Positions 50,829 through 61,368 of a DNA stretch of 64,000 bases are shown one piece after another. The stretch lies in contig NZ_PYWB01000002.1 of assembly GCF_003056345.1 (NCBI RefSeq), positions 124,001 to 188,000 on the forward strand, given 5' to 3'. The stretch's first letter is position 1. Each line of letters starts with the position of its first letter. Below the pieces are notes generated by a model that worked only from the letters and a program-made list of their open reading frames with translations, was not told the origin of the DNA and searched no databases. The position numbers were made by a program, and so were the translations under genes. This DNA comes from Devosia submarina (GTDB taxonomy: Bacteria > Pseudomonadota > Alphaproteobacteria > Rhizobiales > Devosiaceae).

Positions 50829-53213
50829 TTAAGCTCCGTACGGAACCCAGACGTTCTTGACCTGCGTAGCCTTGCTCAGGAAGTAGTCGCCTTCAAAGCG
50901 CCGGTCGGCGAGGTCGTAGTAGAGGCCGCGGCTGGTCCAGGTTTGCTTGAGGTTGCCCGCGGAGGCCTTTTCGACCATCGCAGAGGTTTGCGCGTCGCCG
51001 GCAAACCAGAGGCCATCCACGCCGTCATGTTCGGCTAGCGTCTTGGCGAGCGTGGCGCTGTCGCCGGTGACGATGTTGACCACGCCTGAGGGGATGTCCG
51101 AGGTTTCGATGACCTGGTAGAGGTCGGTGATGCTGAGGGGCGAGCGCGCGGAGGGAACAAGGACCACCGTGTTACCCATCGCCAATGCCGGGGCAAGCAG
51201 GGCAATTGAGCCCAGGAGCGGGCGCGAGGGTGGCGCGACGATGCCTAGGACGCCGAGGGGTTCGATCATGGAGGCGGCAATCGCGCGCATAGGTGGATTG
51301 TGGACGGCGCCATCATATTTGTCGGCCCAGCCGGCAAAGGCAAAAAGCCGCTCGACAGAGAGGGCAACTTCTTCAGCGCCGTCTTCGCCGGTTTGAGCCT
51401 TGATGCGCCTGGCGAACTCGTCGCGGCGGTAGTCGAGGTTTTCGGCAAGGAAATAGAGGATCTGCGCGCGGGAATGCGCGGATGTGGTGGACCAGCCAAG
51501 GGCAGCGCGCGCGCCTTCCACGGCATTGCGGATGTCCTTGCGGTTGCCGTCACCGACTTCGCCGATAGTTTCGCCGTTGGGTGCTAGGACAGCGCGGCTG
51601 TAACCGCTGTCAGGCCGCGCCTGCTTGCCGCCGATATACATCTTGGCAGTTTGGTCGAGATGGTCACGATCCAGAGGGTTCGTGCCACGCCCTCGTGGTT
51701 CGACAGGCTCACCATGAGGGCTACTGGTCGTTGGCGCGAGGTGCTTTTCCCAAGCGGGCTTCAAATAGGCGCTCACGCCCTCGCGGCCGCCTTCGCGACC
51801 GAAGCCGGATTCCTTGTAGCCGCCGAAGCCCACTGCCGCGTCGAAATTGTTGGTGCCGTTGATCCAGACAACGCCTGCCTTGATCTTGGGGGCGATGTCG
51901 AGGGCGAGATTGATGTTCTCGCTCCAGATGGTGGCGGCAAGGCCGTATTTGGTGTTGTTGGCGAGGGCGACGGCTTCCTCGGGCGTGCGGAAGCTCATGG
52001 CGACGAGGACGGGGCCAAAGATTTCCTCGGCGACAAGGGTGTTGGCCGGGGAGACATTGGTGACGAGAGCGGGCTTAAGGAAGCAGCCGGCGTCGGGCAA
52101 CGTCATGTTGTCGGGCTCATAGATCATCGCGCCTTCGGCAGCGCCGCGCGTCATAAGATCACGGATACGCTCGACCTGGACGGGTGCGACCATGGCGCCG
52201 ATATCCACGGATTTATCGAGCGGGTCTCCGACGCGCAGGGTTGCCATGCGCTTCTTGAGCTTGGTGATGAAGCGCTCTTCGATGCTTTCCTGCACCAGGA
52301 GGCGGGAGCCGGCGCAGCAGACCTGGCCCTGGTTGAACCAGATGGCGTCGACCAGGCCCTCGATGGCGGAGTCGATGTCAGCGTCTTCAAAGACGATGTA
52401 GGGTGACTTGCCGCCCAGCTCGAGCGAGAGGCCCTTGCCGGTACCGGCGGTCGCCATGCGGATGGCCTTGCCGACTTCGGTCGAGCCGGTGAAGGCGATC
52501 TTGTCGATGCCTTGGTGGGCAACAATGGCCTGGCCGGTTTCGCCCTGGCCGGTGACGATGTTGACGACGCCCTTGGGCAGGCTGATGCGCTGGCAGATTT
52601 CGGCGAAGAGGAGCGCGGTGAGCGAGGTGAACTCGGCGGGTTTCAAGATCACCGTATTGCCGGCGGCAAGCGCCGGGGCGATCTTCCAGGCGAGCATCAG
52701 CAGCGGGAAGTTCCACGGGATAATCTGGCCGCAGACGCCGTAGGGCACGTGGTCGGGAAACACGCGCTGGAGGTGCTGGGCCCAGCCGGCGTGGTGGTAA
52801 AAATGGCGCGCGACCAGGGGAATGTCGATGTCGCGGGATTCGCGGATGGGCTTGCCGTTGTCGAGGGTTTCCAGAACCGAAAACAGGCGGGCGTGCTTTT
52901 GGACCGCGCGGGCTATGGCGTAGAGGTATTTGCCGCGTTCGTAGCCGCTGAGAGAGCTCCAAGGGCCGAAGGCGGCGCGGGCGGCGCTGACGGCGAGGTC
53001 GATGTCGGCTTGTGTACCTTCGGTGAGGTCAGCCAGTTTCTCGCCGGTAGCGGGATTCTCGGTGTTGAAAATCGTGCCGGGTTCGGTCCACTCGCCATCG
53101 ATGAAGTGGCCGAAGCGGCGCTCGTGCCCATCCAGCCATGCGATCGCCTGGTCGGCGGCTTCGGGAGCGGGACCATATTCGAGCGTTTCGAAAATTTGTG
53201 CGATCTTGTTCAT
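50829..53213 (-). CDS. Two-domain aldehyde dehydrogenase, ALDH16 type
   Basis: The 794-residue protein has a complete N-terminal ALDH unit (about 1-495): IIPWNFPLLMLAWKIAPALA, FTGSTEVGKAI, LELGGKSPYIVFEDAD with the general-base Glu, catalytic C299 in GQVCCAGSR, and EEIFGPVLVAMSF. A C-terminal ALDH-like unit follows (about 520-794) that lacks the Cys and Glu, the layout of the ALDH16 family. The linker around 498-508 is encoded by a palindromic repeat. The start is ATG 53213. Lying between deoC and deoA, it probably oxidises the acetaldehyde released by DeoC. That role is inferred from context. Confidence 0.9.
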   Translation of the reverse strand: MNKIAQIFETLEYGPAPEAADQAIAWLDGHERRFGHFIDGEWTEPGTIFNTENPATGEKLADLTEGTQADIDLAVSAARAAFGPWSSLSGYERGKYLYAIARAVQKHARLFSVLETLDNGKPIRESRDIDIPLVARHFYHHAGWAQHLQRVFPDHVPYGVCGQIIPWNFPLLMLAWKIAPALAAGNTVILKPAEFTSLTALLFAEICQRISLPKGVVNIVTGQGETGQAIVAHQGIDKIAFTGSTEVGKAIRMATAGTGKGLSLELGGKSPYIVFEDADIDSAIEGLVDAIWFNQGQVCCAGSRLLVQESIEERFITKLKKRMATLRVGDPLDKSVDIGAMVAPVQVERIRDLMTRGAAEGAMIYEPDNMTLPDAGCFLKPALVTNVSPANTLVAEEIFGPVLVAMSFRTPEEAVALANNTKYGLAATIWSENINLALDIAPKIKAGVVWINGTNNFDAAVGFGGYKESGFGREGGREGVSAYLKPAWEKHLAPTTSSPHGEPVEPRGRGTNPLDRDHLDQTAKMYIGGKQARPDSGYSRAVLAPNGETIGEVGDGNRKDIRNAVEGARAALGWSTTSAHSRAQILYFLAENLDYRRDEFARRIKAQTGEDGAEEVALSVERLFAFAGWADKYDGAVHNPPMRAIAASMIEPLGVLGIVAPPSRPLLGSIALLAPALAMGNTVVLVPSARSPLSITDLYQVIETSDIPSGVVNIVTGDSATLAKTLAEHDGVDGLWFAGDAQTSAMVEKASAGNLKQTWTSRGLYYDLADRRFEGDYFLSKATQVKNVWVPYGA
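51689..51721. repeat. Family A palindrome inserted in frame in the aldehyde dehydrogenase gene
   Basis: GCCCTCGTGGTTCGACAGGC to GAGGGC, nearly identical to the intergenic copy at 55631-55663 (one base differs in the core). In the ALDH reading frame it encodes SPHGEPVEPRG, between the two ALDH units. Confidence 0.85.
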
Positions 53214-53242
53214 TTGGTTTCCTTCCAACCGAACCCCATGAT

Positions 53243-53334
53243 CGTCATCACCGGCTTGTCCCGGTGATCCATCTGCGCGCATCAAGCATGCGAACTTCAG
53301 GATGGATTGCCGGGACAAGCCCGACAATGACGGC
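53243..53334. repeat. Palindromic repeat, family C, between deoC and aldehyde dehydrogenase
   Basis: CGTCATCACCGGCTTGTCCC with GGTGAT (53243-53268) and GATTGCCGGGACAAGCCCGA with CAATGACGGCG form two hairpins in the 160-base gap. Confidence 0.8.
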
Positions 53335-55683: not shown

Positions 55684-56649
55684 CTAGCGCTCCTTGGTGT
55701 AGGGCACACCGCCTGCCTTGGGGCCAACGGCTTTGCCGATGAAGCCGGCCAGCAGGATCACGGTCAGCACATAGGGCAGCGCCTGGATGGCCTGTACGGG
55801 GATTTCGATGCCGCCCAGGCGCGCGCTCTGCAGGCGAATCTGGAGGGCGTCGAGGAAACCGAAAAGGAGGCAGGTGAACATGGCGGGCACCGGCTTCCAC
55901 TTGGCAAAGATCAGGGCGGCCAGAGCGATGTAGCCCTTGCCGGCTGTCATGTTGTTGCCAAAGCCGGAACCCTGCGCGATGGAGAAATAGGCGCCAGCAA
56001 GGCCGCAGAGGAGACCGGTTATGATCACGGCCTGGTAGCGCAGGGCGACCACGGAAATGCCTGCCGTATCCACCGCCTTGGGGTTTTCGCCCACAGCGCG
56101 CAGGCGCAGGCCGAAGCGGGTACGGTAGAGCACATAGGCAGTGACGGCCACCATGATGAAGCCGATGTAAACAAGCAGATAATGCCCGGAAATCAGGTCC
56201 GCATAAATGGGTCCGATGATTGGCACGCCGGAGAGTTCGCTGGCGAATGGCAGGGTGATGACGGAGAAGCGCCCGCCCTCATTGAGCGGCGGAGTACGCC
56301 CGCCCTGACCGAACCAGGTCTGGCCGAGGAATGTCGTCATGCCGGCGGCCAGCATGTTGATGGCGACGCCGGCAATAAGCTGGTTGCCCTTGAGGGTGAT
56401 GGCGGCAACGCCTTGCAAAAGCGCCGTGCCCAGGGACACGGCCATGCCGGCAAGAAGGCCCATCCAGGCCGAGCCCGTGACAGCGGCGACCGCGCCAGCG
56501 GCGAATGCCGCTGCCAGCATCTTGCCTTCAAGGCCGATGTCGAAAATCCCGGCACGTTCGGAGTAAAGACCGGCAAGGCAGGCCAGAAGCAGCGGCGTGG
56601 ACAGGCGGATCGTGGCGTCCAGAATGGAGAGGATGGTGGCGATATCCAT
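55684..56649 (-). CDS. Nucleoside ABC transporter permease 2 (NupQ/BmpC type)
   Basis: The 321-residue inner-membrane permease is of the BPD_transp_2 family with about eight to nine helices. It has LACLAGLYSERAGIFDIGLEGKMLAAAFAAG near the start and TAGKGYIALAALIFAKWKPVPAM near the end, typical of the second permease in BMP-type nucleoside importers. Its ATG comes one base after the first permease's stop (TGAGATG). Confidence 0.92.
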   Translation of the reverse strand: MDIATILSILDATIRLSTPLLLACLAGLYSERAGIFDIGLEGKMLAAAFAAGAVAAVTGSAWMGLLAGMAVSLGTALLQGVAAITLKGNQLIAGVAINMLAAGMTTFLGQTWFGQGGRTPPLNEGGRFSVITLPFASELSGVPIIGPIYADLISGHYLLVYIGFIMVAVTAYVLYRTRFGLRLRAVGENPKAVDTAGISVVALRYQAVIITGLLCGLAGAYFSIAQGSGFGNNMTAGKGYIALAALIFAKWKPVPAMFTCLLFGFLDALQIRLQSARLGGIEIPVQAIQALPYVLTVILLAGFIGKAVGPKAGGVPYTKER

Positions 56650-56650
56650 C

Positions 56651-57781
56651 TCAGCTCTCCGTCTTGGCGGTGGACACGGCCACGGCTTCGGTCTTGTGCT
56701 CGGGCGTGTAGAGCATGAAAGCGCGCTCCAGCGTTGGCCGGAACAGCCCTTCCATGGCGCCGGTGAAGAGGATCACCAAGGCCTGAATGACGACGATCAT
56801 CTCGCGGGTGATGCCGGGAATGACGAATTGAAGTTCTTGCCCGCCTTGGTAGAGCGCGCCGAAAAGGAGCGATGCGAGGAGGATGCCGATGGGGTGGTTG
56901 CGGCCCATCAGCGCCACGGCGATGCCAACAAAACCGGCGCCGGCGACAAAATCGAGCACGAGGCGGTTCTGCACGCCCATGACTTCGTTGATGGCCACCA
57001 TGCCGGCGAGAGCGCCGGAAATGGTCATGGTGATCATGATCATCTTGCTGTTGGAAATACCGGCATAGCGCGAGGCGGTGGGATTGGCGCCCAGCACGCG
57101 CATGGCATAGCCGAACTTGGTGCGCCAGACGAGGAAGTAGACCCCAATCAGCGCGGCAATGGCGATGACGATGGAAAGGTTGACCGGCGAATAGCCGAAG
57201 AAGGAGAAGAATTGGCGCAGCTGCGGCACGCGCCCGGGGACTGCAATAGTGGCGGATTCAGGAGCCATGGTGGTAGCGGGCTTGAGCACACGGTTGACCA
57301 TGTAGACCATCAGCGCCGCAGCGATGAAGTTGAACATGATAGTGGTAATAACCACATGGCTGCCGCGCTTGGCCTGCAGGTAACCGGGTATAAAGGCCCA
57401 AAAACCGCCGACGGCGCCTGCAGCGATGATGGCGAGCGGCATGGCAAGGAGCCAATGGGTCTGGTCGAGCGCCAGGGCAACGACGATGGCGCCCAGCCCT
57501 GCGACATAGGCCTGTCCATCGCCGCCAATATTGAAGAGCCCGGCATGGGCGGCTACTGCCACGGCAAGGCCGGTGAAGATGAAATTGGTGGCGTAGTACA
57601 GCGTGTAGCCAAAGCCATCGCCATAGCCGAAGGCGCCGTAGATGATGACCTGGATGGCGTGGAACGGGTTTTCCCCGACCAGCAGCACGACGAGGCCCGA
57701 CACGAGGAAAGCCAGGATCAGGTTGATGGCGGGAAGCAGGGCGATATCGGCCCAGCGGGGAATAGGTCTGCGGGCGCTCAT
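56651..57781 (-). CDS. Nucleoside ABC transporter permease 1 (NupP/BmpB type)
   Basis: The 376-residue permease of the BPD_transp_2 family has about ten helices, with TGLAVAVAAHAGLFNIGGDGQAYVAGLGA and FWAFIPGYLQAKRGSHVVITTIMFNFIA as signatures. It forms the channel with permease 2. Its ATG overlaps (ATGA) the stop of the GIY-YIG gene, and ATGAGCGCCC at its start is repeated exactly at the start of that gene. Confidence 0.92.
   Translation of the reverse strand: MSARRPIPRWADIALLPAINLILAFLVSGLVVLLVGENPFHAIQVIIYGAFGYGDGFGYTLYYATNFIFTGLAVAVAAHAGLFNIGGDGQAYVAGLGAIVVALALDQTHWLLAMPLAIIAAGAVGGFWAFIPGYLQAKRGSHVVITTIMFNFIAAALMVYMVNRVLKPATTMAPESATIAVPGRVPQLRQFFSFFGYSPVNLSIVIAIAALIGVYFLVWRTKFGYAMRVLGANPTASRYAGISNSKMIMITMTISGALAGMVAINEVMGVQNRLVLDFVAGAGFVGIAVALMGRNHPIGILLASLLFGALYQGGQELQFVIPGITREMIVVIQALVILFTGAMEGLFRPTLERAFMLYTPEHKTEAVAVSTAKTES
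57772..57781. repeat. 10-base direct repeat, copy 1, flanking the GIY-YIG gene
   Basis: GGGCGCTCAT, identical to 58719-58728. On the minus strand it reads ATGAGCGCCC, the start of permease 1. Confidence 0.85.
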
Positions 57782-58728
57782 TCAGCTGCCTCGATGTTTG
57801 CGCTTGCCGCTTCAACCATCGCGTCTTGGTATTCCTTCAAAGTCTGATCACTCTCTTTGACCAGCCACGACGTCCTACCATTTGCATTGCGGCCGTAAAT
57901 TACGGCTGCGGCTGCGCTTGGACTGGAGAATGGCACGTCTCTGGTGAAAGCAAGCATAGTCTGATCACTGCTCAACGAGAGTGAACCGTCGGCTATTAGT
58001 TGATCCCGAAGACCGCTGTATTGATTCATAGCATAATCGGGATCCTTGCGGGCGAGACTACCTTCCCGAACTATAGTCTCATCGCCGATCTGAACCGCAG
58101 CCGCAGAAAGCCCTTCTCGGCTGTTTCGTAGTATCAGTTCCAGTCGATCCACATCTGAATGAATGGGAGTAGCGGCGTTCCGAAAGACGGGCTGAACAAC
58201 TCTAGAGATCGGCTCACGCAGTATGTCAAAACCAAGTACCGGAAGTACAGTCTTCAGCTGTTCAAGAAAGAACTCCATGTCTGCCAGATCTGATTCCGGC
58301 ATGGCTCCCGGCGGAGGATCGTTGGCATTTAACACGTGAGCCCTGCCAGACTCGCGCGCGATCTGAGTAATACGGCTCTCTAGATATCTGACATGCGCTT
58401 TCGTTATATTCTGATCCGAGCTTGTAATCAGACAAACGCGTTCAAAAAAGTCCTTCTGCTCGTCTTTAGAATGCTGGACTATCCGCCGGCCTACGATGTC
58501 GCTTTCTCCAACATAAATTGTTCTTCTGACACTTGGATCCGGAGCATCTCCCAGCAGTATATAGACACCCGTTTTGTCTGCCTCCGGCCTGCGGACGAGC
58601 TCTGCCAGCCTTTCCCGAGGAGCGACCAAGACCCTGCCTGTCCAATTGATGATCTCAGCTGTTATCAAACCCGCCTGAGCGTTGCCGTCGACCAAGAAAA
58701 GTCTGACGGTACGGCCTAGGGCGCTCAT
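57778..58728 (-). CDS. GIY-YIG nuclease-domain protein with C-terminal DUF4357
   Basis: The 316-residue protein has GVY (54-56) and YVG (72-74) as the GIY-YIG pair, R82 and H86, and E117 in YLESRI as probable catalytic Glu. The C-terminus (about 265-305: SPSAAAAVIYGRNANGRTSWLVKESDQTLKEY) fits DUF4357, a domain seen with restriction-modification genes. GC content is visibly lower than in the neighbours. It sits between ATPase and permease genes of a nucleoside importer, with ATGA overlaps at both ends and a 10-base direct repeat (57772-57781 and 58719-58728) flanking it. A transport role is unlikely; a late insertion is inferred. Confidence 0.87.
   Translation of the reverse strand: MSALGRTVRLFLVDGNAQAGLITAEIINWTGRVLVAPRERLAELVRRPEADKTGVYILLGDAPDPSVRRTIYVGESDIVGRRIVQHSKDEQKDFFERVCLITSSDQNITKAHVRYLESRITQIARESGRAHVLNANDPPPGAMPESDLADMEFFLEQLKTVLPVLGFDILREPISRVVQPVFRNAATPIHSDVDRLELILRNSREGLSAAAVQIGDETIVREGSLARKDPDYAMNQYSGLRDQLIADGSLSLSSDQTMLAFTRDVPFSSPSAAAAVIYGRNANGRTSWLVKESDQTLKEYQDAMVEAASANIEAAE
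58719..58728. repeat. 10-base direct repeat, copy 2, flanking the GIY-YIG gene
   Basis: GGGCGCTCAT; on the minus strand ATGAGCGCCC is the start of the GIY-YIG gene and contains the stop codon of the ABC ATPase. Confidence 0.85.
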
Positions 58729-60353
58729 GGCAGGGGTCCCTGTTCGGCAATGCCGAGGCCGCGGGGGGCCGCTTTGCTGTTGATGCCGGCCATCATAAGG
58801 CCGAGTTCGCCTTCGGTGGCGGTGGCGGGGTCGGCTTCGCCTACAATGACCCCGTCGAACATCACGAGGATGCGGTCGGCAAGGGAGCGAATTTCGTCGA
58901 GCTCGACCGAGACGAGGAGGATGGCCTTGCCCTCGTCGCGCATCTTGATGATCTCGTTGTGGATGAACTCGATGGCGCCGATATCGACGCCGCGGGTGGG
59001 CTGCCCGATCACCAGCACGTCGGGGTCCTGCTCCATTTCGCGGGCAAGGACGATCTTTTGCTGGTTGCCGCCGGAAAACAGCGAGGATTTGAGATTGATG
59101 TTGGCGGGCCGCACGTCAAAGAGCTTGATGTGGTCGGCAGCGGCTTTCTTGGCGGCGGCAATATCGAGGAACGGGCCCGCGCCATAGGCGGGTGTATCCT
59201 GGTAGCCCAGGATGGCGTTTTCCCATTCGGCGAAATTGGTGACAAGGCCCATGCGCTGGCGGTCTTCCGGGACATGGGCAAGGCCGGCCTGGCGGGCGCG
59301 GGCGGCGCCGTCATCGCCATCCAACGAGAGCGGCTCGCCCTTGACGAGGACATGTCCGGATTTCTGGTCGCGCATGCCGGAAATGGATTCCAGCAATTCC
59401 GACTGACCATTGCCGGAGACGCCGGCTATGCCGACGATCTCGCCGGCCCGCACGGCAAAGCTCACATCCTTGACGCGAGTGACACCCATGTCGTCGGCAA
59501 CGACGAGGTTTTGCACTTCAAGGAGGGTTTTGCCAGGGGTGGCGGGCTTCTTGTCGACGCGCAGGAGGACGCGGCGCCCGACCATGAGTTCGGCGATCTG
59601 CTCGGGATTGGTTTCGGCGGTCTTGAGCGTGGCAACCATCTGGCCCTGGCGCATGATCGATACGCTATCGGTGATGGCCATTATCTCGCGCAGCTTGTGG
59701 GTGATCAGGATCACCGTCTTGCCCTGCTTGCGCAGGGTTTCCAGCACGCGGAAGAGGTCGTCGGCTTCCTTGGGGGTCAGAACGCCCGTGGGTTCGTCCA
59801 GGATCAGGGTTTCGGCGCCGCGATAAAGCGCCTTGAGGATTTCGACGCGCTGCTGCTGGCCTACCGAGATATCCTCGATGATGGCATCGGGATTGACCTC
59901 GAGGTCGTATTCCTGTTCGAGCCGATTGAGCTCCTTGCGGGCGCGGTCAAGGCTGGGCTTGATCAGGCCGGAATCCTCGGCGCCAAGCACGATGTTTTCA
60001 AGGACAGTGAAATTGTCGACCAGCATGAAATGCTGGTGCACCATGCCGATGCCCAGCTTGAGGGCATGGCGGCTGTCGGTGATGGCCTGAGGGGTGCCGT
60101 TGACGCGGATGGTGCCGCTGTCGGCGGTGTAGAAGCCATATAGGATGGACATCAAGGTGGACTTGCCCGCGCCGTTTTCCCCCACGATGCCATGGATGGT
60201 GCCGCGTGCGATCTTGAGATCGATGTCCTTGTTGGCGTGAACGTCGCCAAAGCGCCTGTTGATCTTTTCAAGCTCGATCGCCCAGCCATTTGCCGGGACA
60301 AAAGCAGCGGCCGTTTCCGGCCGCTGCGGGTTCATGGGGCCATTCTGGCTCAT
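58725..60353 (-). CDS. Nucleoside ABC transporter ATPase with two nucleotide-binding domains (NupO/BmpD type)
   Basis: The 542-residue duplicated ATPase has an N-terminal domain with Walker A GENGAGKSTL, signature ISVGQQQRVEIL and Walker B LILDEPTGVLT. The C-terminal domain has the usual degenerate P-loop GVSGNGQSEL, FSGGNQQKIVLARE and VLVIGQPTRGVD. This is the layout of sugar/nucleoside importers. The start is ATG 60353; TTG 60356 is adjacent and ATG 60335 possible. It lies ten bases after the binding-protein gene. Confidence 0.93.
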   Translation of the reverse strand: MSQNGPMNPQRPETAAAFVPANGWAIELEKINRRFGDVHANKDIDLKIARGTIHGIVGENGAGKSTLMSILYGFYTADSGTIRVNGTPQAITDSRHALKLGIGMVHQHFMLVDNFTVLENIVLGAEDSGLIKPSLDRARKELNRLEQEYDLEVNPDAIIEDISVGQQQRVEILKALYRGAETLILDEPTGVLTPKEADDLFRVLETLRKQGKTVILITHKLREIMAITDSVSIMRQGQMVATLKTAETNPEQIAELMVGRRVLLRVDKKPATPGKTLLEVQNLVVADDMGVTRVKDVSFAVRAGEIVGIAGVSGNGQSELLESISGMRDQKSGHVLVKGEPLSLDGDDGAARARQAGLAHVPEDRQRMGLVTNFAEWENAILGYQDTPAYGAGPFLDIAAAKKAAADHIKLFDVRPANINLKSSLFSGGNQQKIVLAREMEQDPDVLVIGQPTRGVDIGAIEFIHNEIIKMRDEGKAILLVSVELDEIRSLADRILVMFDGVIVGEADPATATEGELGLMMAGINSKAAPRGLGIAEQGPLP

Positions 60354-60363
60354 CAATTCTCGC

Positions 60364-61368
60364 TTAGAGAGGGCAGGACGAGTCGGTGAAGTAGTCGTGG
60401 ACCTCGATATCGCCAGCGATGATCTGGTTCTTGATTTCCTCGACCTGGGTCTGCATCTCGGGGGTGATCAGTTCCTGGTTGTGTTCGTCCAGCGAATAGC
60501 CAACGCCATCTTCGGCAAGGCCGAGAACGGTGGTGCCGGGCTTGAAGGTGGCGTCGTCGGCCGCTTCGGTCAGGGCATTCTTCACGGCAAGATCAACGCG
60601 CTTGATCATGGAGGTCAGGACCGAGCCGGGCTGGAGGTAGTTTTGGTTGCTGTCCACGCCGATGGAGTATTTGCCGGCGTCCTTGGCAGCCTGCAGCACG
60701 CCAAGGCCCGAGCCACCGGCCGCGGCGAAAATCACGTCGGCACCAGCGTCGATTGCAGCCTTGGTCAATTCACCGGCGGTGACCGGATCGTTCCAGGCGG
60801 CCGGGGTGGTGCCGGTGTAGTTTTCGATCAGGGTTGCATCGGGGTTCACGTGCTTGGCGCCCTGGGCATAGCCGCAATAGAAGCGGTGGATCAGGGGAAC
60901 GTCCATGCCGCCGACGAAGGCCACGGTGCCGGTTTCGCTCTTGAGCCCCGCCAGGGCGCCAACGAGGAATGAGCCGGTGTGCTCATCAAACAGGATGGAC
61001 TGCACGTTTGGCGCTTCAACAACGGTGTCGATCACGACGAAATTGGTGTCAGGGAATTCAGGAGCAACGGCTTCAAGCGCCGCAGTCCAGGAGAAGCCGG
61101 CCATGACGATGGGGTTTGCACCCTGACCTGCAAAGCGGCGCAGGGCCTGCTCGCGCTGGGCATCGTTCTGCAGTTCCAGATCCAGGAAGTTGCCGCCCGT
61201 TTCTTCTTTCCAGGCCACGCCGCCATTATAGGCCGCTTCGTTGAACGACTTGTCGAACTTGCCGCCAAGATCATAGATCAGCGCGGGATCGGCGAAGGCT
61301 GCACCGGTCAGGACCGCGCTCAGCGCGATGCCGCCAGCGATAGCCTTGGTGAAGGTGGAAAATTTCAT
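60364..61368 (-). CDS. BMP-family nucleoside-binding protein (BmpA/PnrA type)
   Basis: This 334-residue periplasmic binding protein has a signal peptide cut near AFA/DPALIYD. No lipobox Cys is present, so it is free in the periplasm, unlike Gram-positive and spirochaete lipoproteins. Family marks are GGKFDKSFNEAAYNG, NPIVMAGFSW, FVGGMDVPLIHRFYCGYAQGAKH and IGVDSNQNYL. The family binds purine or other nucleosides. It heads the operon; a promoter-like sequence lies at 61477-61505. Confidence 0.93.
   Translation of the reverse strand: MKFSTFTKAIAGGIALSAVLTGAAFADPALIYDLGGKFDKSFNEAAYNGGVAWKEETGGNFLDLELQNDAQREQALRRFAGQGANPIVMAGFSWTAALEAVAPEFPDTNFVVIDTVVEAPNVQSILFDEHTGSFLVGALAGLKSETGTVAFVGGMDVPLIHRFYCGYAQGAKHVNPDATLIENYTGTTPAAWNDPVTAGELTKAAIDAGADVIFAAAGGSGLGVLQAAKDAGKYSIGVDSNQNYLQPGSVLTSMIKRVDLAVKNALTEAADDATFKPGTTVLGLAEDGVGYSLDEHNQELITPEMQTQVEEIKNQIIAGDIEVHDYFTDSSCPL

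Follow-up and report, generated by a model that had tools for sequence, protein, structure and literature searches.

We describe here a gene for a GIY-YIG/DUF4357 nuclease-like protein that stands between the ATPase and the first permease of an ABC transporter operon in Devosia submarina. The sequence analysed is a 64,000-nt stretch of contig NZ_PYWB01000002.1, referred to below as the window, and all coordinates are positions within it. The gene (57778..58728, minus strand; 316 amino acids) is recognised by its open reading frame, by its DUF4357 and PADLOC PDC-S14 matches and by its modelled fold, and it is bounded on both sides by a perfect 10-bp direct repeat. An 81% identical gene occupies the same ATPase/permease junction in Devosia epidermidihirudinis E84 (genome G018), which belongs to a different clade, and is bounded there on both sides by a repeat of its own, the 16-bp sequence CATCGTGAGTGCGCTG. 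We propose that this stand-alone GIY-YIG-fold gene is a homing-type mobile gene that was inserted twice independently, with its predicted nuclease cutting the empty junction. Among the explanations weighed below, homing-type mobility is the best single one, although it is unproven and we place its probability a little short of even.

The operon runs along the minus strand in the order Bmp-type binding protein, ABC ATPase, GIY-YIG/DUF4357 gene, permease 1, permease 2 and salvage-like genes. The upstream neighbour of the nuclease gene is the ATPase (58725..60356, minus strand, with two ABC_tran stretches by Pfam match), and the downstream neighbour is the first permease (56651..57781, minus strand, BPD_transp_2 by Pfam match), whose 5' end is the target. 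The repeat GGGCGCTCAT lies at 57772-57781 and 58719-58728, a spacing of 947, and on the minus strand it reads ATGAGCGCCC. The left, upstream copy (58719..58728) contains the ATPase stop, the TGA of an ATGA overlap, together with the start codon of the nuclease gene, and the right, downstream copy (57772..57781) contains the TGA stop of the nuclease gene together with the permease start codon. Because the ATG is in the left copy and the TGA in the right, the 937-bp core of the insert (57782..58718, minus strand) includes neither the first start codon of the gene nor its stop; a TTG that lies in frame at codon 12 might act as a later start. ATGA overlaps are thus present at both the ATPase/nuclease and the nuclease/permease joints. 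The first-pass annotation had reported these repeats, with copies beginning at 57772 and 58719, and coupling on both sides of the gene; the repeats are as it described, and the open reading frame ends confirm the coupling. Its suggestion of import from a lower GC content also agrees with the composition, which in 500-base windows drops from about 0.61 to 0.51-0.53 over the nuclease gene, and the GC content at third codon positions (GC3) is 0.51 in this gene against 0.70-0.80 in six neighbouring genes of the operon.

The junction is direct in nearly all genomes of the family, by which we mean the Devosiaceae genomes. Of the 136 examined, 128 have the permease, and 126 junctions were read, one being left out at a contig edge and one for a stretch that contains no ATPase. 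The junction is empty in 124 of the 126 and occupied in two, those of the window genome and G018. The ATPase and permease overlap by exactly 4 bases at 80 of the 126 junctions, and the two occupied junctions have gaps of 943 and 940. In one empty allele, that of G075, a single ATGAGCGCCC lies between left and right flanks that are near-identical to those of the window. The proposal in the first-pass annotation that the gene is inserted between two normally adjacent subunits, and that an empty ATPase-permease junction should be found among relatives, is therefore upheld, and neither of the outcomes that it named as refuting was found: the gene is far from universal among relatives, and a direct junction is the rule. 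Other cargo at the empty junctions was considered and rejected: the largest gap among the 124 is 251 bp (L119), which is too short for the nuclease gene, and G131, the genome with this gap, gave no hit to it. The next best match to the nuclease gene in the 136 genomes is 48% identical and lies outside this operon. The 10-base permease start of the window is found also at 22 of the 124 empty junctions and is the commonest permease start in the family, and the first 35 bases of the permease contain a well conserved GCGCTGGGCCGA stretch. The C-terminal tail of the ATPase before the junction is hypervariable (L027-L076 and others), with recurring forms such as ...GIAEQGPLP and ...KEAAE in both main clades, as if a short stretch were exchanged between genomes. 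In G022 and G062 the permease match is in two pieces of one contig, a frameshift or an assembly error.

The window repeat, taken alone, is weak evidence. When the 64-kb window was shuffled, 7 of 100 shuffles held two or more copies of the 10-bp repeat, and 21 of the 10,440 coupled-start pairs on the window's contig share at least 10 bases in register. What gives the repeat significance is the finding that the same position in G018 has a different, longer repeat. The two copies are identical within each genome and differ between the window genome and G018, and the 16-base G018 repeat reaches 4 bases upstream of the start codon, beyond the coding sequence of the gene itself. Over codons 1-3, the start-codon base and the third positions of codons 2-3 are not the same in the two nuclease genes, and at all three sites each gene matches its own permease. 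Of the 9,870 coupled-start pairs in the G018 stretch examined, none but the CATCGTGAGTGCGCTG pair shares as many as 16 bases. Only four coupled starts on the window's contig read M-S-A, which make six pairs, the observed one among them; these counts and the 21 matching pairs are what can be said for a coincidence between two M-S-A starts, but the G018 repeat, and the agreement of each gene with its own permease, make such a coincidence very improbable. We also note an 11-base match, GCGCTGGGCCG, between the start of the G018 gene and permease codons 8-12, to which we give no weight, since G5 and R6 hardly vary across a 30-row alignment.

There are several indications that the two junctions were occupied separately. 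A tree of the ATPase and permease was built from 50 of the 126 genomes; it has some weak forks and includes the window's ATPase in part only. On it the window genome is the one occupied row in a clade of 25, and in another clade G018 pairs with the empty G010 as its sister. By hand count on these 50 genomes the tree implies two gains, or one gain and about 14-15 losses. The flanks of the G018 gene resemble those of G010 to within a short distance of the repeat. Between the window and G018, the nuclease genes are 68% identical in nucleotides, and they differ at 0.73 of 4-fold sites compared with 0.39-0.50 in seven flanking genes. Dividing the 4-fold-site difference by the value expected at saturation (p/b) gives 0.97 (95% 0.86-1.07) for the nuclease gene and 0.69-0.82 for six flanking operon genes; for the seventh, cytidine-deaminase-like gene the raw 4-fold difference is 0.50. 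Of 43 shared genes whose proteins are 76-86% identical, none has diverged further in nucleotides than the nuclease genes. Their GC3 values (0.51 in the window, 0.56 in G018) are the lowest in both genomes among the 107 shared genes retained after 18 of 125 pairs were dropped, and the next lowest are 0.63 and 0.64. From the sequences, the repeats look young, whereas the genes seem old and poorly matched to their hosts, a combination for which two separate insertions into one target would be the simplest explanation.

The product is a predicted nuclease. The DUF4357 domain (PF14267) is C-terminal, at residues 241-296 (59.2 bits, cut-off 38.4), and the PADLOC PDC-S14 profile PDLC04923 matches residues 2-307 over positions 22-316 of 320, nearly its full length (E 1.3e-108). 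A GIY-YIG fold occupies residues about 24-137 of the predicted model, and the conserved residues of the catalytic fold are present in it. The protein has no match in solved structures at E 0.001 by plain Foldseek, none among solved-structure sequences at E 1 by profile search, and none in an NCBIfam search.

The events that we propose would begin with the encoded nuclease cutting the conserved empty ATPase/permease junction, and the break would be repaired by copying the nuclease gene in; the GCGCTGGGCCGA stretch at the 5' end of the permease could, speculatively, be the recognition sequence. The stop-start overlap would be duplicated at insertion and would supply the start, the stop and the coupling. 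The nuclease gene would then ride on the translational coupling of the operon, and the host operon should lose little, since the permease keeps its own coupling. The gene's own product is the likely agent of insertion, because the nuclease gene is the only coding-strand open reading frame of at least 100 amino acids inside the insert. We infer the duplication at insertion, the separateness of the two insertions, and the cut and copying by which the gene would have entered. A more specific and more doubtful form of the proposal is that of a minimal mobile gene, in which a core with neither start nor stop seeks a conserved stop-start overlap, duplicates it and so gains start, stop and coupling while leaving the operon intact.

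The wider protein family offers a different context. A search retained 2110 proteins at E 0.001 among 7,998 scored candidates, and the P-numbered relatives are drawn from the best 120 of these. Within that set, 21 proteins besides the window's (P0002-P0022) are 62-90% identical to it, among them P0008, from G018; where an organism name is given, for three of them, it is Devosia. Seventeen of the 21 begin MSAxGRT, two (P0019, P0022) begin MTA, one (P0021) MGA, and P0020 is short; 13 of the 21 end in EAA plus one residue. Among 38 more distant loci, neighbours were matched to Pfam at 16; seven of these had been picked because of tight coupling or neighbours that look like restriction genes, so the sample is not random. 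Nine of the 16 adjoin restriction, BREX or integrase genes, and seven adjoin type I restriction genes or BrxL. HsdM and HsdS are on the two sides in L079 and L102, HsdS precedes the family member in L085 and L105, a protein of the EcoEI-type R C-terminal class precedes it in L104, HsdR follows in L095, BrxL is beside it in L092, and an integrase in L083 and L098; the neighbours are other or unassigned at seven loci (L077, L088, L089, L096, L099, L100 and L110). No ABC operon genes are found in any of the 38 loci within the stretch examined. The link to restriction or defence made in the first-pass annotation is supported by the PDC-S14 match and by the type I restriction neighbours at 6 of the 7 selected loci. 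Its suggestion to look for flanking direct repeats at other genes of this kind did not bring out a general feature of the family. Comparing 150 bases before the match with 100 after the stop, we found that the longest string common to the gene ends is 11 bases (L104 and L105), and no flanking repeat reaches 12 bases at any of the 38 loci. In L104 (reverse strand, 1406 and 2479) the 11-base TTCGGCGGTCG flanks the family member, and in L110 (reverse strand, 1476 and 2389) the 9-base GGCGCTGCG abuts both gene ends, at about chance level; these strings may be chance or the trace of a similar duplication. Loci L081-L084, from two genera, share the sequence ATTATCCCAAATAGGGATTT(A/G)TTCA in the intergenic region immediately before the nuclease gene, where it faces a putative divergent small regulator, and L083 has a tyrosine integrase downstream; the shared sequence looks like a private operator on islands.

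A number of these observations weigh against homing-type mobility. GIY-YIG enzymes make short staggered cuts, which would not directly yield a duplication of 10-16 bp. Occupied loci read as DNA number only two, with P0002-P0007 and P0009-P0022 known as proteins alone, and no repeat as long as 12 bases was seen at the 38 other family loci. The genome-wide p/b has a median of 0.79 and a 95% quantile of 0.94 over 125 pairs, and one gene reaches 1.00; because silent sites are near saturation genome-wide, the silent-site excess of the nuclease gene is suggestive rather than proof. The 81% protein identity falls within the 75-88% range of the flanking genes, as vertical descent would give. Finally, the presence of relatives in type I restriction operons and beside BrxL and integrases fits a defence role, which is the main rival since PDC systems are phage-defence candidates found by embedding. 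On that account a restriction-like PDC-S14 defence gene was captured by illegitimate recombination at a short ATGAGC-type homology linking its own start with that of the permease, and spread or recurred through homologous recombination of the flanks, with no nuclease-driven mobility. In addition to the profile match and the neighbourhoods, several of which have coupled starts, it is helped by some more distant relatives (P0025 and P0036) that also begin MS..GR, so that the likeness between gene start and permease start may lie in the gene itself. However, as far as the nearest relatives permit judging, native flanks reach almost to the repeat in both genomes, and flank-driven transfer would therefore need crossovers very near the repeat twice; moreover, the 4 upstream bases of the G018 repeat lie where homology with the coding sequence of the gene does not reach. 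We consider this capture possible but on balance unlikely.

The protein identity is also the starting point for the idea of one ancient insertion in the ancestor of the genus, followed by vertical descent and precise repeat-to-repeat deletion in nearly all genomes, the repeats being kept identical by conversion or re-excision. Direct repeats allow precise loss, and at all 124 empty junctions the gap is too small for the gene. Set against this are the 14-15 losses required by the tree, the silent divergence of the nuclease gene above that of the flanking genes, and the shortness of repeats of 10-16 bp as substrates for gene conversion. The GC3 of the gene is the lowest in both genomes despite near-saturated silent sites, and an ancient insertion must therefore assume long residence without amelioration. 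We regard it as improbable, and more so than defence capture.

Other kinds of element were considered and rejected. For a transposon or insertion sequence, the insert has no transposase open reading frame and no inverted repeats joining its two ends; the flanking duplication is 10 bp in the window and 16 bp in G018, a difference that rests on two cases and could reflect later decay. For an intron, an Rfam search of 56600-60400 gave no intron family, the only listed match being a sub-threshold H19. For a phage or plasmid source, the best phage match is 41% and the best plasmid match 50%, with one viral-contig locus at 41%.

Free-standing homing genes offer the closest likeness, since here too a stand-alone nuclease-like open reading frame lies between conserved genes, and a single exact site is filled in two genomes, from separate clades, and empty in the rest of those read. 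The first-pass annotation knew of no described mechanism for so precise an insertion, but phage T4 provides a precedent: twelve free-standing homing nuclease genes lie between other T4 genes, and mobE, of the HNH class, lies between nrdA and nrdB with its start overlapping the upstream stop as UAAUGA (PMC2988022). As described there, mobE resembles the window gene as a stand-alone nuclease gene between two subunit genes with an overlapping start, and the T4 seg genes have the GIY-YIG class in common with it; the window gene differs from both in its bacterial chromosome, its two-sided coupling, its target-matched direct repeats and its C-terminal DUF4357, and homing is here a proposal. Loci rich in homing endonuclease genes in ICP1 and other phages are alike in that their nuclease genes, including the GIY-YIG-related T5orf172 class, mostly stand free and lie close to or inside essential genes, but they are in phage genomes and belong to a different nuclease subfamily (PMC10448857). 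The PDC systems are introduced as phage-defence candidates obtained through 'guilt-by-embedding', with some overlap reported between PDC-S14 and GAO_29 (PMC10855318); the window protein matches the PDC-S14 profile over nearly its full length, but its gene is in a Bmp-type ABC operon with target-matched repeats and not in a defence locus.

A literature search on gene insertion at coupled junctions, requiring most terms together, found no paper, and one combining free-standing homing endonucleases, bacterial chromosome and operon returned one phage paper. A further search, pairing GIY-YIG with DUF4357, gave a single paper, on GmrSD enzymes. Horizontal transfer is known to place genes into existing operons, and such mosaic operons are alike in having a foreign gene inside a conserved operon; the window case differs in that the insert recurs at a single nucleotide position and comes with a second copy of the stop-start overlap. 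Should the homing proposal hold, bacterial chromosomal operons too would harbour selfish nuclease genes of the kind that T4 has in mobE and seg, and a stop-start overlap would serve as landing site and expression signal at once. This would be one route by which foreign genes enter tight operons without breaking them, and a hint that a family listed among phage-defence candidates has self-moving members.

The rest of the operon and of the window supplies some further observations. The host operon also encodes a second permease (55684..56649, minus strand, BPD_transp_2) and a Bmp/PnrA-like substrate-binding protein (60364..61368, minus strand), both by Pfam match, and the genes past the second permease look like nucleoside salvage enzymes, named by reading their sequences rather than by family search. 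A REP-like (repetitive extragenic palindromic) repeat with the core GTTCGACARGCTCACCATGAG is present in seven copies in the window, allowing up to 3 mismatches (0.01 expected), at 1078, 1143, 30669, 30732, 51698, 55581 and 55640, of which six form three inverted pairs about 60 bp apart. The copy at 51698-51718 is inside a single 832-residue open frame (50829-53327, minus strand) with two aldehyde dehydrogenase stretches, just after the first of these (residues 85-523), and because of this position the palindromic repeat may have fused two aldehyde dehydrogenase genes.
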